From Bacillota bacterium (GTDB lineage: Bacteria > Bacillota > UBA5301 > Bu52): a stretch of 64,000 nt of DNA. Position numbers and translations under genes: made by a program. This document shows, one piece after another, positions 6,741 to 16,607 of this stretch. Location of the stretch: NCBI GenBank assembly GCA_014896355.1, contig JADBKO010000026.1, positions 1 through 64,000 on the forward strand, given 5' to 3'. Numbering within the stretch: position 1 is the first letter of the stretch; every line of letters begins with the position of its first letter. The notes below the pieces were generated by a model. That model was given only the letters and a program-made list of their open reading frames with translations, searched no databases and had not been told where the DNA came from.

Positions 6741-8621
6741 TCACATAGACCCCGCCACTGCCGCATCCTTCGCAGGTTTCTGGGAGGGACCCGCATTGCC
6801 GCCTGCCGGAACTGCCTGAGCCTCCGGCGTTCCGGTCGTGTGCTTGCCTGCCGCGCTCATACCCGCTCCGGAGGCAGGCCGGACGTTCACCCCCTGGGCC
6901 GGTGCGGTGACAGCCGGTAAAGGCGCGAACCGCCGCACGCCGGCCGTGTAGCGGTTGGCGGGATTCCAGAGCATCCATTCCTGAATCCCGGCATCCCGGG
7001 CGGCCCGGATTTGGGCCTCCACTTCCGGCACGCTGTACGCCACCCGCAAGCTAAAGTCCTGCAGCCACGGCACCAGCCGAACCTTGCTGCCTGCAGCCCG
7101 CAGCCGCTCCTGGGCCCGGGTCAGGCTGTGGAGGACGGTGTCATACGGGTTACTCTCTGGATCGCCGATACCATAGGAGCCGCGCTGGTAGTGGGAAGGA
7201 TAGACCATGGGACACAGATAATCCACGGGCGTGGCGGCCAGTGTCTCCAAATACTGGCCGATGCCCATGTCATCCTGGGCTGTGGTCACCAAGCCGAAAA
7301 TGTCTGCTGCCACAGTCACATGATACCTGTGTAGAACATCGGCGGCCCGGGTGAGAAAGGCGGCAATCTCCGCGGCGCGGCTACGGCCGTTGGCGAAGGG
7401 GTAATGCAATTCCGACATCTGCGGTGAATCCGGGAAGCGCACGTAATCGAACTGGATCTCCCCAAAACCCAGCTTGGCTGCTTCCACCGCCAAGGCCAGG
7501 TTATAGTCCTGCACGGCCTGGCTGTAGGGATCCACCCAATATTGGCCGGACCGGTCCTGGTACAGGCCGTCCCCGAGGCGCACTCCGAACTCCGGGTGGG
7601 CTCTCACCAGCCGGGAATCCTTGAATACCGCAATACGGGCAATGGGAAACAGGCCGGCGCTGCGGAGCCGGCGCAGAAGGCCCGTGACGTCCGCAATCTT
7701 GCGGTCTGCGGTCCGCGCCGACACGACCAGGGGTTGCGTGGACAGATAGCTCACAGCGCCCGTATCATCCTTGAGTTCCACCACGACACTGTTGATCCCG
7801 GCGGGAGAGGATGCCGCATAGCTGAGGATCCGGTTCAGATGCTGGCTGGAACCGGCCACCCAGCCCGTGACGAACACGCCCCGCACCTGGGCGGGCCTGG
7901 GCAGCGGCGCCACGGCCGGGCCCGGGAAGGCGGAACCCGAAGCCGCCGCGGGCAACGCACTGGAGGCAGGTGGCGACCCGCCGGACGGCTGCGCGCCTGC
8001 GGCCGGCTCGCTGCCACCGGACGATGGCTCGGCGCTGCCAGAGGATCGCTTCGCTCCGCCGGGAGACAGACTGGCGCCACCGGAGGATGGCTGTTCACCT
8101 TCTGTCAGGCCGCCGGTTCTCTCTTGGTGAGGTGCCTCAGGCTGCTGTGCGGCTGAAGCGCCGCTGGAAGGAGGCTCCAGGCCGGCCTCCGCCCCCGCCT
8201 CTGCCCCAGAGGCCGGACCGGCGCTGCCTGCTCCGGAAGGCACCGCTTTGCCAGTGGGGGCGGACGGCTCCAACGCCGCGCCGGATGCAGGCCCACCTGG
8301 GCCAGCGGACTGGCTGGAGTCCGGAACAGCCGGTCTGCCGCCGCCCGGGCCCGGGCGCGTTTCGCCCGCTGCGGGGCCGGCGTGCGCCCGGCTGAAGGCC
8401 GGTACCACTGTCCCGGGCTCGGCGTCCGCCCGCGGCTTGGACCGGACGGGCCGCGTCGAATAGCCCGGAGGGACGACGGCCGTGCGCTGGCGTATGGGCA
8501 GCACCGGCGCATCGATCCAGGCGAAAAACACCGTAGAAACGGTCATGACCGCCAGGCTGATCAGGACCAGAACAGCCCAGCCGAGCAAAGGTCCGGGCCC
8601 GCGGAGACCTGTGGGTGCCAT
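6741..8621 (-). CDS. Membrane-anchored DUF4015 putative glycoside hydrolase
   Basis: The 626-residue product has one N-terminal membrane anchor (about residues 12-35), a long Pro/Ser/Gly/Ala-rich linker (about 65-235) and a TIM-barrel-like DUF4015 domain (about 245-580) beginning RGVFVTGWVAG, with NSVVVELKDDTGAVSY, FGEIQFDYVRFPD, VAADIFGLVT and WMLWNPANRYTAG. DUF4015 proteins are regarded as putative glycoside hydrolases related to GH13 or GH114 folds; no activity is proven that I know of. The acidic residues in ELKDD and FDYVRFPD are candidate catalytic positions. I prefer ATG 8621 to the upstream ATG 8672 because a purine-rich site (AGGAAGGCAGAAAGGG) precedes it. Confidence 0.75.
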   Translation of the reverse strand: MAPTGLRGPGPLLGWAVLVLISLAVMTVSTVFFAWIDAPVLPIRQRTAVVPPGYSTRPVRSKPRADAEPGTVVPAFSRAHAGPAAGETRPGPGGGRPAVPDSSQSAGPGGPASGAALEPSAPTGKAVPSGAGSAGPASGAEAGAEAGLEPPSSGASAAQQPEAPHQERTGGLTEGEQPSSGGASLSPGGAKRSSGSAEPSSGGSEPAAGAQPSGGSPPASSALPAAASGSAFPGPAVAPLPRPAQVRGVFVTGWVAGSSQHLNRILSYAASSPAGINSVVVELKDDTGAVSYLSTQPLVVSARTADRKIADVTGLLRRLRSAGLFPIARIAVFKDSRLVRAHPEFGVRLGDGLYQDRSGQYWVDPYSQAVQDYNLALAVEAAKLGFGEIQFDYVRFPDSPQMSELHYPFANGRSRAAEIAAFLTRAADVLHRYHVTVAADIFGLVTTAQDDMGIGQYLETLAATPVDYLCPMVYPSHYQRGSYGIGDPESNPYDTVLHSLTRAQERLRAAGSKVRLVPWLQDFSLRVAYSVPEVEAQIRAARDAGIQEWMLWNPANRYTAGVRRFAPLPAVTAPAQGVNVRPASGAGMSAAGKHTTGTPEAQAVPAGGNAGPSQKPAKDAAVAGSM

Positions 8622-8799
8622 AATCCCTTTCTGCCTTCCTTCCCGTTGCTTCGCTGCTTTCTGCTTCCACATTTCACCATTTTGCCCGGAATACCCCAGG
8701 ACTATGAGTGCGATCCCATGGCAGGCGGGCCCCGGGGATATGCCGCCCGCGGACCATGAAGTCTATTTCGCCGTCGGACCAGGGTTTCCTGGCTCCAGG

Positions 8800-10516: not shown

Positions 10517-10873
10517 TGGTGGAGGCGGCGGGGTGTCGAACCCCGCGTCCGAAAAGGCAGCCCCAGAAGGCACTCCGAGCGCAGCCGGCAATTTGCATTT
10601 GCCTGACAGGCCTCCCGCCGGCCGGATGCCTGTCAGGCTATCTCGATCAGAATTCGCGCCGCCCCTCCGAGAATTGGGGCCTTGCTAGCCTGCTAAATAA
10701 CGCCCGGATCTGTTCCCGCAGGCTGGGATCAGGCGGACGGCCGCGTGGTTAGTTACGCAGCGTAAGCGAGATTGTCGTTGGCGTTTGTACGCCTTCTACC
10801 TTATTAACGAGGCGGTAGAAACCTCGGCTCGCTCCCTCTGACACCGCACTTCCCGTCGAGACCCATCGCCCCC
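10517..10873 (-). ncRNA. ssrA: Transfer-messenger RNA (tmRNA)
   Basis: Both ends are recognisable. The 5' end GGGGGCG pairs with 3' GCCTCC before ACCA to give an alanine-type acceptor stem with the G3-U wobble, and the 3' part holds the T-arm GGGGTTCGACACCCC. The reading frame from GCC at 10782 to TAA at 10753 encodes the tag ANDNLAYAA, ending in the protease-recognised YAA. Length is 357 bases, typical for a one-piece tmRNA. It rescues stalled ribosomes with SmpB, whose gene lies just upstream on the same strand, yet it has its own promoter at 10955-10983. The mature 5' end probably arises by RNase P cleavage of a leader of about 75 bases. Confidence 0.97.
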
Positions 10874-11954: not shown

Positions 11955-13319
11955 TCAGACAGAATCCCCGTTCTGGTAGGACACGTCGTCCGGCCCGTCC
12001 TGCAGATAGACATATTTCTCGCCCTTGGCCCTCCAGGCCTGGTAGCGTTCCTCGGCCTTCTGGCGGCAGGCGGGACAGGCATCCGGGGGCAGCACTACGA
12101 TGTGGGCTGTGGGCAGAGGTCCGGCGATTCCCTGCCGCTGGGCGGCGGAGCGGATGATCCGCACGCCGCTGCAATCCGGACAGATCCGGATGGCCTCATC
12201 CTGCTCCTCCAGGATGTCGTCGGTATCGTAGTAAATCGTACGCTGCCGTTCCAACCATTGGTTGGGACCCACCCCCAGCTTGGCCAGGTTCTCCTCCGCC
12301 AGCTCCCGGCGATGCTCCCAGATCTGCCGGATCTGGTCCACCAGGCGGTGGATGTACTCCGTTACCTGGGGAGCCTGCCGCAGGGCGCCGGCGTCATAAT
12401 CCGGCTCCCGGACCCGGCCGGTATCCTGGCCGGCCAGTGCCAGCAGAATCCCCACGTTGACGTACGGCAGGGCGCCTTCCACGGAGTAGCCGCCCTCCAG
12501 CACCACGATATCCGGCCGCAGCTTCTCTGTCAGCTGAGCATAGCCTTGGGCGCTGACCATCATGTTCGTCAGCGGGTCGCTGTAATGGTTATCCTGGCCG
12601 GCGCCGTTCACCACCAGGTCCGGCTGGAAATCGTCCAGAAGGGGCCGCACCAGATTGTCCATGATGTAGAGCAGCCCTTCGTCACCGGTGTAGGGCGGCA
12701 CCGGCACATTGATGGTCAGGCCGTAAGCGCCCGGCCCCCCCAGCTCATGGACGAAGCCGGTGCCCGGGTAAAGGGTGCGGCCGTCCTGATGGATACAGAT
12801 GTGCAGGATGTCCGGGTCATTGTAGTAGATGTCCTGGCTGCCGTCGGCATGATGGGCGTCCGTATCCACGATGGCCACCCGCAGCCGGCGGCCGTCGCGG
12901 GCCAGCGCCGCCCGGCGCAGAGCTTCGATCATGATGGCTTCGTTGTTGATCAGGCAAAAGCCCCGCTGTCCCCGCACCACCCGGTGGGCATGGTGCCCCG
13001 GCGGCCGCACCAGCACGAAGGCCCGCTCCACCTGGCCCTCCAGCACGGCCATGCCGCTGACCACGGCGGCGCCGGCGGCCACCCGGTGGGGAGTGGGCAC
13101 TTCCTCCTGCACCGTCGGAACGCAAATGTGCACCCGGGCGATCTCATGGTCCGTAGCCAGGCGCGGCTGCAGGCGCACCAGATTGGGAAGGTCCCACAGG
13201 CCTTCCTCCTCGATTTGGTCCCGCGTATACAGCAGGCGCTCTTCCCGCTCCGGATGCGTCGGCGAAATGGCCCAGTCGAACGCGGGGAAGAACGCCAAAC
13301 CCACCTTGGGCCCGCTCAC
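11955..13319 (-). CDS. Histone-deacetylase-like amidohydrolase with C-terminal CxxC pairs
   Basis: The 454-residue product is an arginase/deacetylase-fold zinc hydrolase of the HDAC/AcuC/polyamine-deacetylase superfamily. Active-site features are intact: H109-H110 in RPPGHHAH, D154 and H156 in VDTDAHHADGS, D243 in GAGQDNHYSDPL and Y278 in LEGGYS. Beyond about residue 350 there is an extension holding two cysteine pairs, CPDC (380-383) and CPAC (415-418), that may form a zinc ribbon. GTG 13319 overlaps the stop of the hydantoinase-like gene as GTGA, with AGGAGGGG upstream. The substrate is unknown: acetylated lysine, acetylpolyamine or another N-acyl compound are all possible. Confidence 0.88.
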   Translation of the reverse strand: MSGPKVGLAFFPAFDWAISPTHPEREERLLYTRDQIEEEGLWDLPNLVRLQPRLATDHEIARVHICVPTVQEEVPTPHRVAAGAAVVSGMAVLEGQVERAFVLVRPPGHHAHRVVRGQRGFCLINNEAIMIEALRRAALARDGRRLRVAIVDTDAHHADGSQDIYYNDPDILHICIHQDGRTLYPGTGFVHELGGPGAYGLTINVPVPPYTGDEGLLYIMDNLVRPLLDDFQPDLVVNGAGQDNHYSDPLTNMMVSAQGYAQLTEKLRPDIVVLEGGYSVEGALPYVNVGILLALAGQDTGRVREPDYDAGALRQAPQVTEYIHRLVDQIRQIWEHRRELAEENLAKLGVGPNQWLERQRTIYYDTDDILEEQDEAIRICPDCSGVRIIRSAAQRQGIAGPLPTAHIVVLPPDACPACRQKAEERYQAWRAKGEKYVYLQDGPDDVSYQNGDSV

Positions 13320-15223
13320 TCCAACCCCTCCTTGCTGACCACGTAGGGACGGGGCCGGGTTTGCGCCCGCACCAGCATGACCTGGCCCACGGTGTACGAC
13401 CCCCGCACCACAGAGAAGCTCTGCTCCTCCACCACTTCCGCCTCCCGGGTGGGCGGGGCCAAACCTTGCGGCTCCAGCGCCCGCGCCCGCCGCAGCGCCC
13501 ACTGGCAGGCCACTTCCCGCGCCCGCTCCAGCGTGAACCGGCCGCCCGGCGGGAGCTGTTCCCGCTGGCCCGATTCTGCGACGGTATAGAAACCGTTCTC
13601 CGTATCCACGTGGACGGTGGCCACGGCGGTGGGCTGGCTGATGGCAGCGCCCAGAGCATTGGCTGCGGCGGCCAAGGGCGGGACAATGGCCGGAACCCCC
13701 ATTCTCGCCCCCACGCGCGGCACCAGGACGGCCGCCGGGCCTCCGATGCCCACGATTCCCGCGATCGGCGGCGGCGGGCCGGCCAGCACCTGGGCGATGG
13801 TGTACAAGGGCCGCTCCATGACCTGCCGGTACGTGGACCGGACCGCCTGGCAGATACCGCCCACCACCTGGGACAGGATCTCCTCCGCCGCCCCGGCGGG
13901 CGTGCATCCCAGCGCCGCGGCGATGGGATGCAGGGCCCGCTCCGCCAACTGCGGGTCGCCGGCCTTCAGAAGCCCCAACACCACCATGGCGTCGGTGGGC
14001 GTAGGCGCCGGCCCGCCCAGGCAGGCGGCGGGTCCCATGCGCTCCGGTCCGATGCGCAGCCGCGCTGCCGCCGCCTGCCCCGGCGCGGACGACACCACCG
14101 GCACGCCTCCCGCCTGTGGGCCCGCGCCCGCTGCCTCCACCCGGACGACGCTGTCGCCGCCCAGGCCGAAAGAACGGGTGAACAGCGCCCGCACCACCGT
14201 GCCCCGGCCGCCGATCTCGGCGCCATAGCGGGCGAACAGCGGCTTTTGCTCCAACAGCACCCCCACGTCCGTGGTGGTCCCGCCGATGTCGAGCACAGCC
14301 ACAGCGCCTGCGAGGCCCCCCAGAGGGCTGTCCGCTCCGCCGGCCAGGGCCTGGGCCCCCATGATACTGGCCGCCGGCCCGGAGAGAATGGCCTCCACCG
14401 GCCGGGCAGCCGCATCATCCAAGGACATGGTGCCGCCATCGGCCTTCACAATGTATACCGGCGCCTGGATGCCGCGGACCTGCAAAGCCTGGCGTACAGC
14501 CTGGTTGAACTGCCTTTGCTGGCGGAGGATGGCCGCGTTCCAGTACGCCGTGTTCAGCCGGCGGGGAAAGTTCAGGACACCGGAAAGCTGGTGCCCCATG
14601 GTCACCGGGACGCCGGCCCACTCCCCGGCCTGCCCGGCCAGTTCCCTGGCCAGCTGGGCCGCCACAGCCCGTTCCGGCTCCGGGTTCCGCACGGAGAACT
14701 TGCCACACACCGCAAAGACCCGGGCCCCCGTTTGCCAAAGACGGCCGAAGGCTCTTTCCACTTCTTCGGGCCGCACCGGCGTGAGTTCCCGCCCCCGGTG
14801 GTCCACTGCGGCCGAGAGGGCTGCCAGTTTCTGTCCAAAGCCGAATTCCTCCCAGTTGCGGCCCGGACCCGGCATGGCCAAAAGGCCCACGGGATCATGC
14901 TTTCCCTCCACGATGGCGTTGGTGGAGAGCGTGGTGCTCAGGATCACCCTGGCGACCCGCGCTGCAGGCACCCGGCTGGACAGCAGCTCGTCCAACGCGC
15001 CCAACACGCTGTCCAGCAGATGCTCATGGTCGGTGGGGCAGCGGGCCGAGGACAGGACACTCACCCGGCCCGGCTCGCTCTCTTCCAACAGGACGGCGTT
15101 GGTAAAGGTTCCGCCCACGTCGATGCCGGCAATCAGAGGGGCCACCCTGCTGCCAGCGGTGGCCCCTGCCTGGGATACGCCGTCGCCCATCCACCGGGAA
15201 TTGTCGGACGTGCGATCAAGCAT
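13316..15223 (-). CDS. Hydantoinase/oxoprolinase family protein (HyuA-like)
   Basis: A 635-residue ASKHA-fold protein of the hydantoinase A/oxoprolinase family, with two phosphate-binding signatures: GIDVGGTFTNAVLLE near the N-terminus and AVLDIGGTTTDVGVLL in the middle. Family members use ATP to open cyclic amides such as hydantoins or 5-oxoproline, usually with a HyuB partner. No HyuB gene is adjacent. The gene lies 46 bases downstream of eno on the same strand and is coupled to the deacetylase-like gene that follows. ATG 15223 has AAAGG upstream and gives a normal N-terminus; an upstream frame start at 15316 lies inside eno. The substrate is not predictable. Confidence 0.85.
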   Translation of the reverse strand: MLDRTSDNSRWMGDGVSQAGATAGSRVAPLIAGIDVGGTFTNAVLLEESEPGRVSVLSSARCPTDHEHLLDSVLGALDELLSSRVPAARVARVILSTTLSTNAIVEGKHDPVGLLAMPGPGRNWEEFGFGQKLAALSAAVDHRGRELTPVRPEEVERAFGRLWQTGARVFAVCGKFSVRNPEPERAVAAQLARELAGQAGEWAGVPVTMGHQLSGVLNFPRRLNTAYWNAAILRQQRQFNQAVRQALQVRGIQAPVYIVKADGGTMSLDDAAARPVEAILSGPAASIMGAQALAGGADSPLGGLAGAVAVLDIGGTTTDVGVLLEQKPLFARYGAEIGGRGTVVRALFTRSFGLGGDSVVRVEAAGAGPQAGGVPVVSSAPGQAAAARLRIGPERMGPAACLGGPAPTPTDAMVVLGLLKAGDPQLAERALHPIAAALGCTPAGAAEEILSQVVGGICQAVRSTYRQVMERPLYTIAQVLAGPPPPIAGIVGIGGPAAVLVPRVGARMGVPAIVPPLAAAANALGAAISQPTAVATVHVDTENGFYTVAESGQREQLPPGGRFTLERAREVACQWALRRARALEPQGLAPPTREAEVVEEQSFSVVRGSYTVGQVMLVRAQTRPRPYVVSKEGLE

Positions 15224-15269
15224 GATGACGACCTTTCTTCCCTCCGGGCCGGCGCTTGAGGCGCCGCCC

Positions 15270-16607
<1,338 letters not shown>

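Follow-up and report, generated by a model that had tools for sequence, protein, structure and literature searches.

A conserved pair of HyuA-like and HDAC-like genes behind eno in a Bacillota genome, and its possible role as a two-component amide hydrolase

The first 64,000 nucleotides of contig JADBKO010000026.1 from a Bacillota bacterium (assembly GCA_014896355.1, forward strand; this whole stretch is referred to here as the window) contain two overlapping genes that directly follow the glycolytic gene eno, one encoding a relative of the ATPase HyuA and the other a zinc amidohydrolase of the histone deacetylase (HDAC) family. The locus comprises the following features, in coordinates of the window:

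13316..15223, minus strand: gene for the HyuA-like ATPase, ATG start, 635 amino acids, first of the pair
11955..13319, minus strand: gene for the HDAC-like zinc amidohydrolase, GTG start, 454 amino acids, second of the pair
13316..13319, minus strand: GTGA overlap of the HyuA stop and the HDAC start, read from the sequence
15224..15269, minus strand: 46-nucleotide gap between eno and HyuA, with no promoter- or terminator-like match
15270..16604, minus strand: eno, last gene of the glycolytic cluster that precedes the pair, assigned by Pfam

Open frames and sequence agree with the initial annotation, which had placed both genes here, overlapping by GTGA and lying 46 nucleotides after eno with no terminator visible in between. 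A scan of 15180-15320 returned neither a terminator-like hairpin nor a sigma-70-like promoter of the kind that would have set the pair apart from eno. There is also no convincing terminator 3' of the HDAC gene, where the predicted fold was no better than that of shuffled sequences (z -1.05), and a promoter-like match lies ahead of the next gene, secG, at 11809-11781. All Pfam bit scores exceed the cut-offs (Hydant_A_N 99 and Hydantoinase_A 121 for HyuA, Hist_deacetyl 205 for HDAC), and in the 2.6-Mb draft genome the two proteins are the sole Hydantoinase_A match and the sole Hist_deacetyl match, respectively. HyuB (PF02538) was sought in the same genome and gave no match.

The proposal that the two genes belong together was to be checked by looking for the same pair in other genomes, and it is borne out there, with co-occurrence and adjacency far beyond chance. 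Profile searches (A1 for HDAC, A2 for HyuA) of 596 genomes from two phyla found both families in 200 genomes, one only in five and neither in 391. In the phylum of the source organism (299 genomes) HDAC was present in 120 and HyuA in 118, with 117 genomes containing both, three only HDAC and one only HyuA, while in the phylum of Desulfosarcina alkanivorans (G305, locus L082; 297 genomes) HDAC was present in 83, HyuA in 84 and both in 83. Matches in the source phylum were accepted at 400 bits or more for HyuA and 590 bits or more for HDAC, together with contig-end or broken HDAC pieces in G087 and G224; other proteins scored below about 280 and about 242 bits, respectively. In 191 of the 200 genomes that contain both, HyuA directly precedes HDAC (117/117 in the source phylum and 74/83 in the other). 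Among the nine non-adjacent cases, one is split by contig ends (G580) and the other eight have both genes present but far apart. Four of the five single-gene exceptions are contig-end cases: G100 has a piece of HyuA at a contig end, the contigs of G248 and G107 stop within or just past the gene, and the match in G546 begins at base 3 of its contig. The fifth is a remnant of both genes in G224 (contig C82, locus L139), in which a single deletion apparently cost HyuA its end and HDAC its start, and judging from this sequence the pair seems to decay together.

A scan of a genome collection with the HDAC sequence gave 512 loci with a relative, the best 80 of which (50-60% identical) come from Bacillota and Desulfobacterota-type organisms such as Moorella, Ammonifex, Orenia, Syntrophus relatives and Desulfosarcina. 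In 74 of these best 80 loci the gene immediately before HDAC, in the same orientation, encodes a HyuA of this kind; four of the other six (L028, L039, L067 and L068) are cut off upstream and their genomes carry HyuA elsewhere, and the remaining two (L048 and L064) are weighed below with the proposed function. Likewise, 14 of 41 relatives carry HDAC at E <= 1e-60, and in all 13 besides the source genome HyuA is adjacent. Fisher tests on the co-occurrence tables gave p < 1e-73, uncorrected for phylogeny. Across 68 pairs (the window and 67 other loci), the distance matrices of HyuA and HDAC correlate at r 0.93, a value that includes shared descent, with 0.14 as the best of 2000 permutations. HyuB and PxpA served as yardsticks in the same 299 genomes, where HyuB was found in 23 of the 121 genomes with the pair (leaving 98 without it) and in 23 of the 178 that lack the pair, and PxpA in 27 of 121 and 62 of 178; neither shows a tie to the pair comparable with that between HyuA and HDAC. 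The pair is obligate and independent of HyuB, and HyuA and HDAC are very probably functional partners. The system is concentrated in some phyla: in that of G306 (a Bacteroidales metagenome-assembled genome, locus L074), HDAC was found in one of 148 genomes, G306 itself, and there the match contains a stop. Long open frames in G585 and G484 were considered as natural HyuA-HDAC fusions and rejected, as their HyuA and HDAC matches lie in different reading frames.

The HyuA-like protein retains both phosphate motifs of its family, DxGGTxTD and DxGGT:

15098..15127, minus strand: HyuA phosphate motif 1, GIDVGGTFTN, residues 33-42, with closing residue N here and D in 58 of 68 pairs
14267..14293, minus strand: HyuA phosphate motif 2, LDIGGTTTD, residues 311-319

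In the 68 pairs HyuA has a mean pairwise identity of 43%, and D35, G37, T39, D312, G314, G315 and T316 are all invariant. So is an aspartate at position 357 (GGD357), where three solved HyuA-type chains have glycine. The family is well separated, at 406-795 bits against about 280 at most for other HyuA proteins. All 25 pair members analysed for domains contain Hydant_A_N and Hydantoinase_A, and none of the 25 matches Pfam Hydant_A_C, which is present in a canonical HyuA beside HyuB (L164). The structural model of HyuA (predicted local distance difference test score, pLDDT, 86.4) nevertheless aligns with solved HyuA-type chains through residue 635, so a diverged equivalent of Hydant_A_C may remain. 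Its best structural matches are acetophenone carboxylase (Z 27.9), acetone carboxylase (Z 27.7) and the caprolactamase subunit CapA (Z 25.3, root-mean-square deviation 7.0), and its fold neighbours outside its own family include N-acetylmannosamine kinases and, at Z 17, dehydratase activators. HyuA-like proteins of 657-658 amino acids were also seen in two genomes without a HyuB match (G298 and G039), at L165:2596-4569 and L166:2565-4541, where each has a pterin-binding methyltransferase beside it and, in addition, an MttB-type methyltransferase in L165 and a B12-binding protein in L166; these are perhaps another HyuB-free use of the HyuA fold, in corrinoid methyl transfer.

The HDAC-like protein has a mean pairwise identity of 60% in the 68 pairs, and its catalytic residues and a C-terminal cysteine module map as follows:

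12990..13007, minus strand: HDAC RPPGHH, residues 105-110, with the two catalytic histidines, in 68 of 68 pairs
12849..12866, minus strand: HDAC DTDAHH, residues 152-157, with D154 and H156
12585..12599, minus strand: HDAC GQDNH with zinc ligand D243, family-specific, AGFDAA in the HDAC6 alignment
12486..12497, minus strand: HDAC EGGY, residues 275-278, with catalytic Tyr278
12171..12182, minus strand: C380 and C383, which form the first CxxC of the zinc-ribbon-like four-cysteine module at the C terminus
12066..12077, minus strand: C415 and C418, which form its second CxxC

The whole of R105-H110 (including H109 and H110), D154, H156, D243, Y278 and the four C-terminal cysteines are invariant in the 68 pairs. 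We take D154 and H156 to be zinc ligands, from the HDAC literature and from the alignment with HDAC6. The first residue of the XGGY motif is E in 60 and Q in eight, the gatekeeper at position 250 is I (35 pairs) or L (33 pairs) and never the Glu of a PEG motif, and a PIT/PLT sequence stands at position 251 in 64 of 68. Residues 2-340 of the model (pLDDT 88.6) find their structural counterparts in HDAC6 and bacterial HDAC-like enzymes (Z about 40). The four-cysteine module lies past residue 340, outside this match, and for the C-terminal part (341-454) no covering fold match stood out among the matches listed for the full protein. According to the accessible part of a survey of bacterial deacylases (PMC11532494), RPPxHH and XGGY motifs mark robust deacetylases that release acetate only, and a gatekeeper role of Glu is described for HDAC10 in the available text of PMC5454378.

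Around the pair in the source genome, pgk, tpiA, gpmI and eno lie upstream on the same strand (Pfam), preceded by gapA and a CggR-like regulator (assigned by eye from open frames), and downstream are secG and smpB (Pfam) and then the transfer-messenger RNA (tmRNA) gene. The initial annotation had linked the pair to glycolytic control, and this link did not hold up. The eno, gpmI, secG and smpB genes were found in none of 109 pair or partner loci (tblastn, E <= 1e-10), although the flanks reach only a few kb and the short secG could be missed. The other pairs have different neighbours, among them mutS/mutL, miaA/miaB, an epmA-like gene and tgt/queA. A connection with glycolysis as a general feature is therefore unsupported, and the linkage to eno is local. 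Counted in the 109 loci with single tblastn queries, neighbours include CMD-type genes (17), MazG (14), an EpmA-like synthetase (12), tgt (11), queA (11), a saccharopine-dehydrogenase type (6), mutL (5), miaA (5), protein-isoaspartate methyltransferase (PCMT; 5), mutS (4), miaB (4) and an nspC-like decarboxylase (3); some loci are closely related, and these counts are not independent. Beside the pair in the best 80 loci, the biggest other gene cluster occurred in only 14, and no transporter or catabolic gene was conserved. In a tally of neighbour families that covered 103 of 143 downstream and 98 of 134 upstream neighbours and 15 chosen extras, with redundant- or low-complexity-looking rows dropped by hand, the largest family had seven members, and hence there is no common partner. 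Because the neighbours are mostly of a housekeeping kind and share no pathway, their variety suggests a general maintenance or repair role rather than a dedicated catabolic operon.

Several individual loci deserve separate mention. In L070, L172, L173 and L174 the pair sits between mutS and mutL, with miaA adjoining mutL. A PCMT homologue occurs in the pair loci L016, L018, L029, L030 and L035 (5/109), and a repair theme is conceivable. In six loci of unlinked pairs (L175, L177, L179, L181, L185 and L187), HDAC lies near a gene of the saccharopine-dehydrogenase type, with a pyridoxal-phosphate-dependent (PLP) decarboxylase of the nspC kind near HDAC too in three of them; a polyamine link is possible, with the naming of both gene types partly our presumption. 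Elsewhere in the window, the tmRNA gene (10517-10873, minus strand; tag ANDNLAYAA) is immediately downstream of smpB, and a DUF4015 putative glycosyl hydrolase, whose N-terminal part includes a long stretch rich in Gly/Ser/Pro/Ala, is encoded at 6741-8672 (minus strand).

Our tentative reading, a real possibility rather than a probability, is that HyuA and HDAC form a single obligate two-component, ATP-linked amide hydrolase. The pair preserves the HyuA half of the known machinery, lacks HyuB and invariably includes a zinc hydrolase with a different fold, so that on the simplest reading HDAC is the hydrolysing component. HyuA, an ATPase of the ASKHA fold, would bind ATP at its two phosphate motifs and activate an amide substrate, the probable means being phosphorylation of its amide (iminol) oxygen, a step that has been proposed for CapA and oxoprolinase as well. 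HDAC, in place of HyuB, would supply the zinc-bound water, two histidines and a tyrosine with which the activated amide may be hydrolysed, and its C-terminal four-cysteine module is a candidate docking part. We infer this chemistry and type of substrate, and likewise a physical complex, a phosphorylated intermediate and the order of the steps. A wider claim is more doubtful: that the pair represents a third type of HyuA-based machinery, an ATP-dependent amide hydrolase with a zinc enzyme of the HDAC fold replacing HyuB as the hydrolysing subunit, that this would be the first ATP-driven enzyme of the HDAC family, and that it has a conserved maintenance function in roughly one third of the genomes sampled from the two phyla.

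A number of observations weigh against a single amide hydrolase. The RPPxHH and XGGY motifs point to an N-acetyl substrate more than to a lactam, and an acetamide can be hydrolysed without ATP. Characterised HDACs, to our knowledge, work without ATP. In L064 HyuA lies about 2.8 kb from HDAC on the opposite strand, and L048 belongs to a genome (G299, outside the 596-genome sample) with HDAC and no HyuA. No HyuA-HDAC fusion is present among the matches listed, the nearest neighbour is identical for both proteins in only 40 of the 68 pairs, and both the Fisher tests and the matrix correlation lack a correction for phylogeny.

The observations that sit awkwardly with one enzyme are in part those that would suit two consecutive steps of a short pathway, taken in either order, in which HyuA spends ATP on a cyclic amide or acts as a kinase of small molecules, and HDAC deacetylates the product or the precursor. 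A closed pathway of two steps is in keeping with the obligate co-occurrence, the RPPxHH and XGGY motifs suit acetyl removal, N-acetylmannosamine kinases are among the fold neighbours of HyuA, and the unlinked HDAC genes beside saccharopine-dehydrogenase-type genes in six loci, and PLP decarboxylases in three, point the same way. Neither a transporter nor a third gene of such a pathway is conserved next to the pair. Moreover, every known ATP-dependent cyclic-amide opener of the HyuA family discussed in the accessible text of PMC8453981 requires a HyuB-type subunit, and HyuB is mostly absent here. For these reasons the route suggested by the initial annotation, ring opening followed by deacylation, is not established; a two-step pathway in general is rather unlikely, though still a live rival. 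The same HDAC motifs, invariant in the 68 pairs and combined with a Leu/Ile gatekeeper, are also those of robust deacetylases, as they would be if HDAC were a protein (lysine) deacetylase with HyuA as its ATP-dependent regulator, adaptor or substrate remodeller. ASKHA proteins often serve as ATP-driven activators, and the match of dehydratase activators to the HyuA model is in keeping with such a role. We know of no HDAC that depends on a HyuA-like partner. Lysine acylation is abundant in syntrophs, for which the available part of PMC9676460 names sirtuins as deacylases. The rim beside the zinc ligand is family-specific in the pair, with GQDNH in place of the AGFDAA of the HDAC6 alignment, and HyuA retains the full catalytic motifs of enzymes acting on small substrates; a regulated lysine deacetylase appears unlikely, though it too is a live rival.

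A need for ATP would also be accounted for by ring opening if the pair were a replacement 5-oxoprolinase or another enzyme of lactam-damage repair standing in for PxpABC, and PxpA is indeed somewhat rarer in genomes with the pair (27/121 vs 62/178; Fisher p 0.02, phylogeny uncorrected). This complementarity was rejected as weak and as contradicted by the source genome, which holds both the pair and PxpA; furthermore, 102 of the 178 pair-free genomes lack both PxpA and HyuB, and a replacement for PxpABC is very improbable. That two unrelated genes came to lie side by side after eno by chance would agree with the lack of conservation of this position, but 200 genomes with both genes against five with one, including eight unlinked pairs, leave that explanation next to no probability.

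The pair is apparently an undescribed enzyme team of many anaerobic bacteria. A full-text search, which did not cover subscription journals and preprints, found no paper on a HyuA-HDAC pair. In its accessible part, PMC10040529 names hydantoinase and histone deacetylase in separate gene clusters and not as a pair, and the deacylase survey PMC11532494 was not among the papers whose searchable text contains both 'hydantoinase' and 'histone deacetylase'. Since the pair is kept in 200 of the 596 genomes even where its genes have drifted apart, thousands of anaerobe proteins that are labelled 'hydantoinase' or 'histone deacetylase' probably belong to one undescribed system, and the label 'histone deacetylase' in bacteria need not mean a protein deacetylase. 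For ATPases of the HyuA type the known partners are of the HyuB type, and enzymes of the HDAC fold are known as ATP-independent deacylases; the question that the pair raises is which amide would require ATP as well as a zinc deacetylase.

Among known systems, the 5-oxoprolinase PxpABC resembles the pair in combining a kinase-like component with a separate hydrolase component, but is built from unrelated protein families, and its PxpA coexists with the pair in the source genome. The HDAC half is closest to bacterial zinc deacylases of the HdaH/HDAC6 type (cluster 1 of Graf et al. 2024), with which it shares the arginase-deacetylase fold at Z about 40, the catalytic residues and the RPPxHH and XGGY motifs, and from which it is set apart by its C-terminal extension with four invariant cysteines, its GQDNH sequence and its obligate HyuA partner. 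It belongs to the same superfamily as the polyamine deacetylases HDAC10 and bacterial ApaH, with RPPGHH and EGGY motifs in common. In contrast to HDAC10, its gatekeeper is Leu or Ile rather than Glu in all 68 pairs, and its PIT/PLT sequence is reminiscent of the PIS motif in bacterial ApaH, a head-to-head dimer, so that polyamine substrates are possible. The HyuA half shares Hydant_A_N and Hydantoinase_A, both phosphate motifs and the fold (Z 25-28) with CapAB, 5-oxoprolinase, HyuAB and the acetone and acetophenone carboxylases. In caprolactamase, as set out in the accessible sections of PMC8453981, an ATP site in CapA and a metal site with a nearby tyrosine in CapB are joined by a tunnel of 40 A. 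Activity fell to mere traces when phosphate-site aspartates of CapA were mutated and was absent in mutants of the CapB metal ligands, and in the proposed mechanism the lactam is activated in CapA and undergoes metal-assisted hydrolysis in CapB. The pair, as read from its sequence, would likewise have its ATP site in one subunit and its metal site in a second. Unlike the CapAB/HyuAB group, however, its HyuA carries an invariant GGD357 where three solved chains have glycine, and the partner of that HyuA is an HDAC-fold enzyme rather than HyuB.

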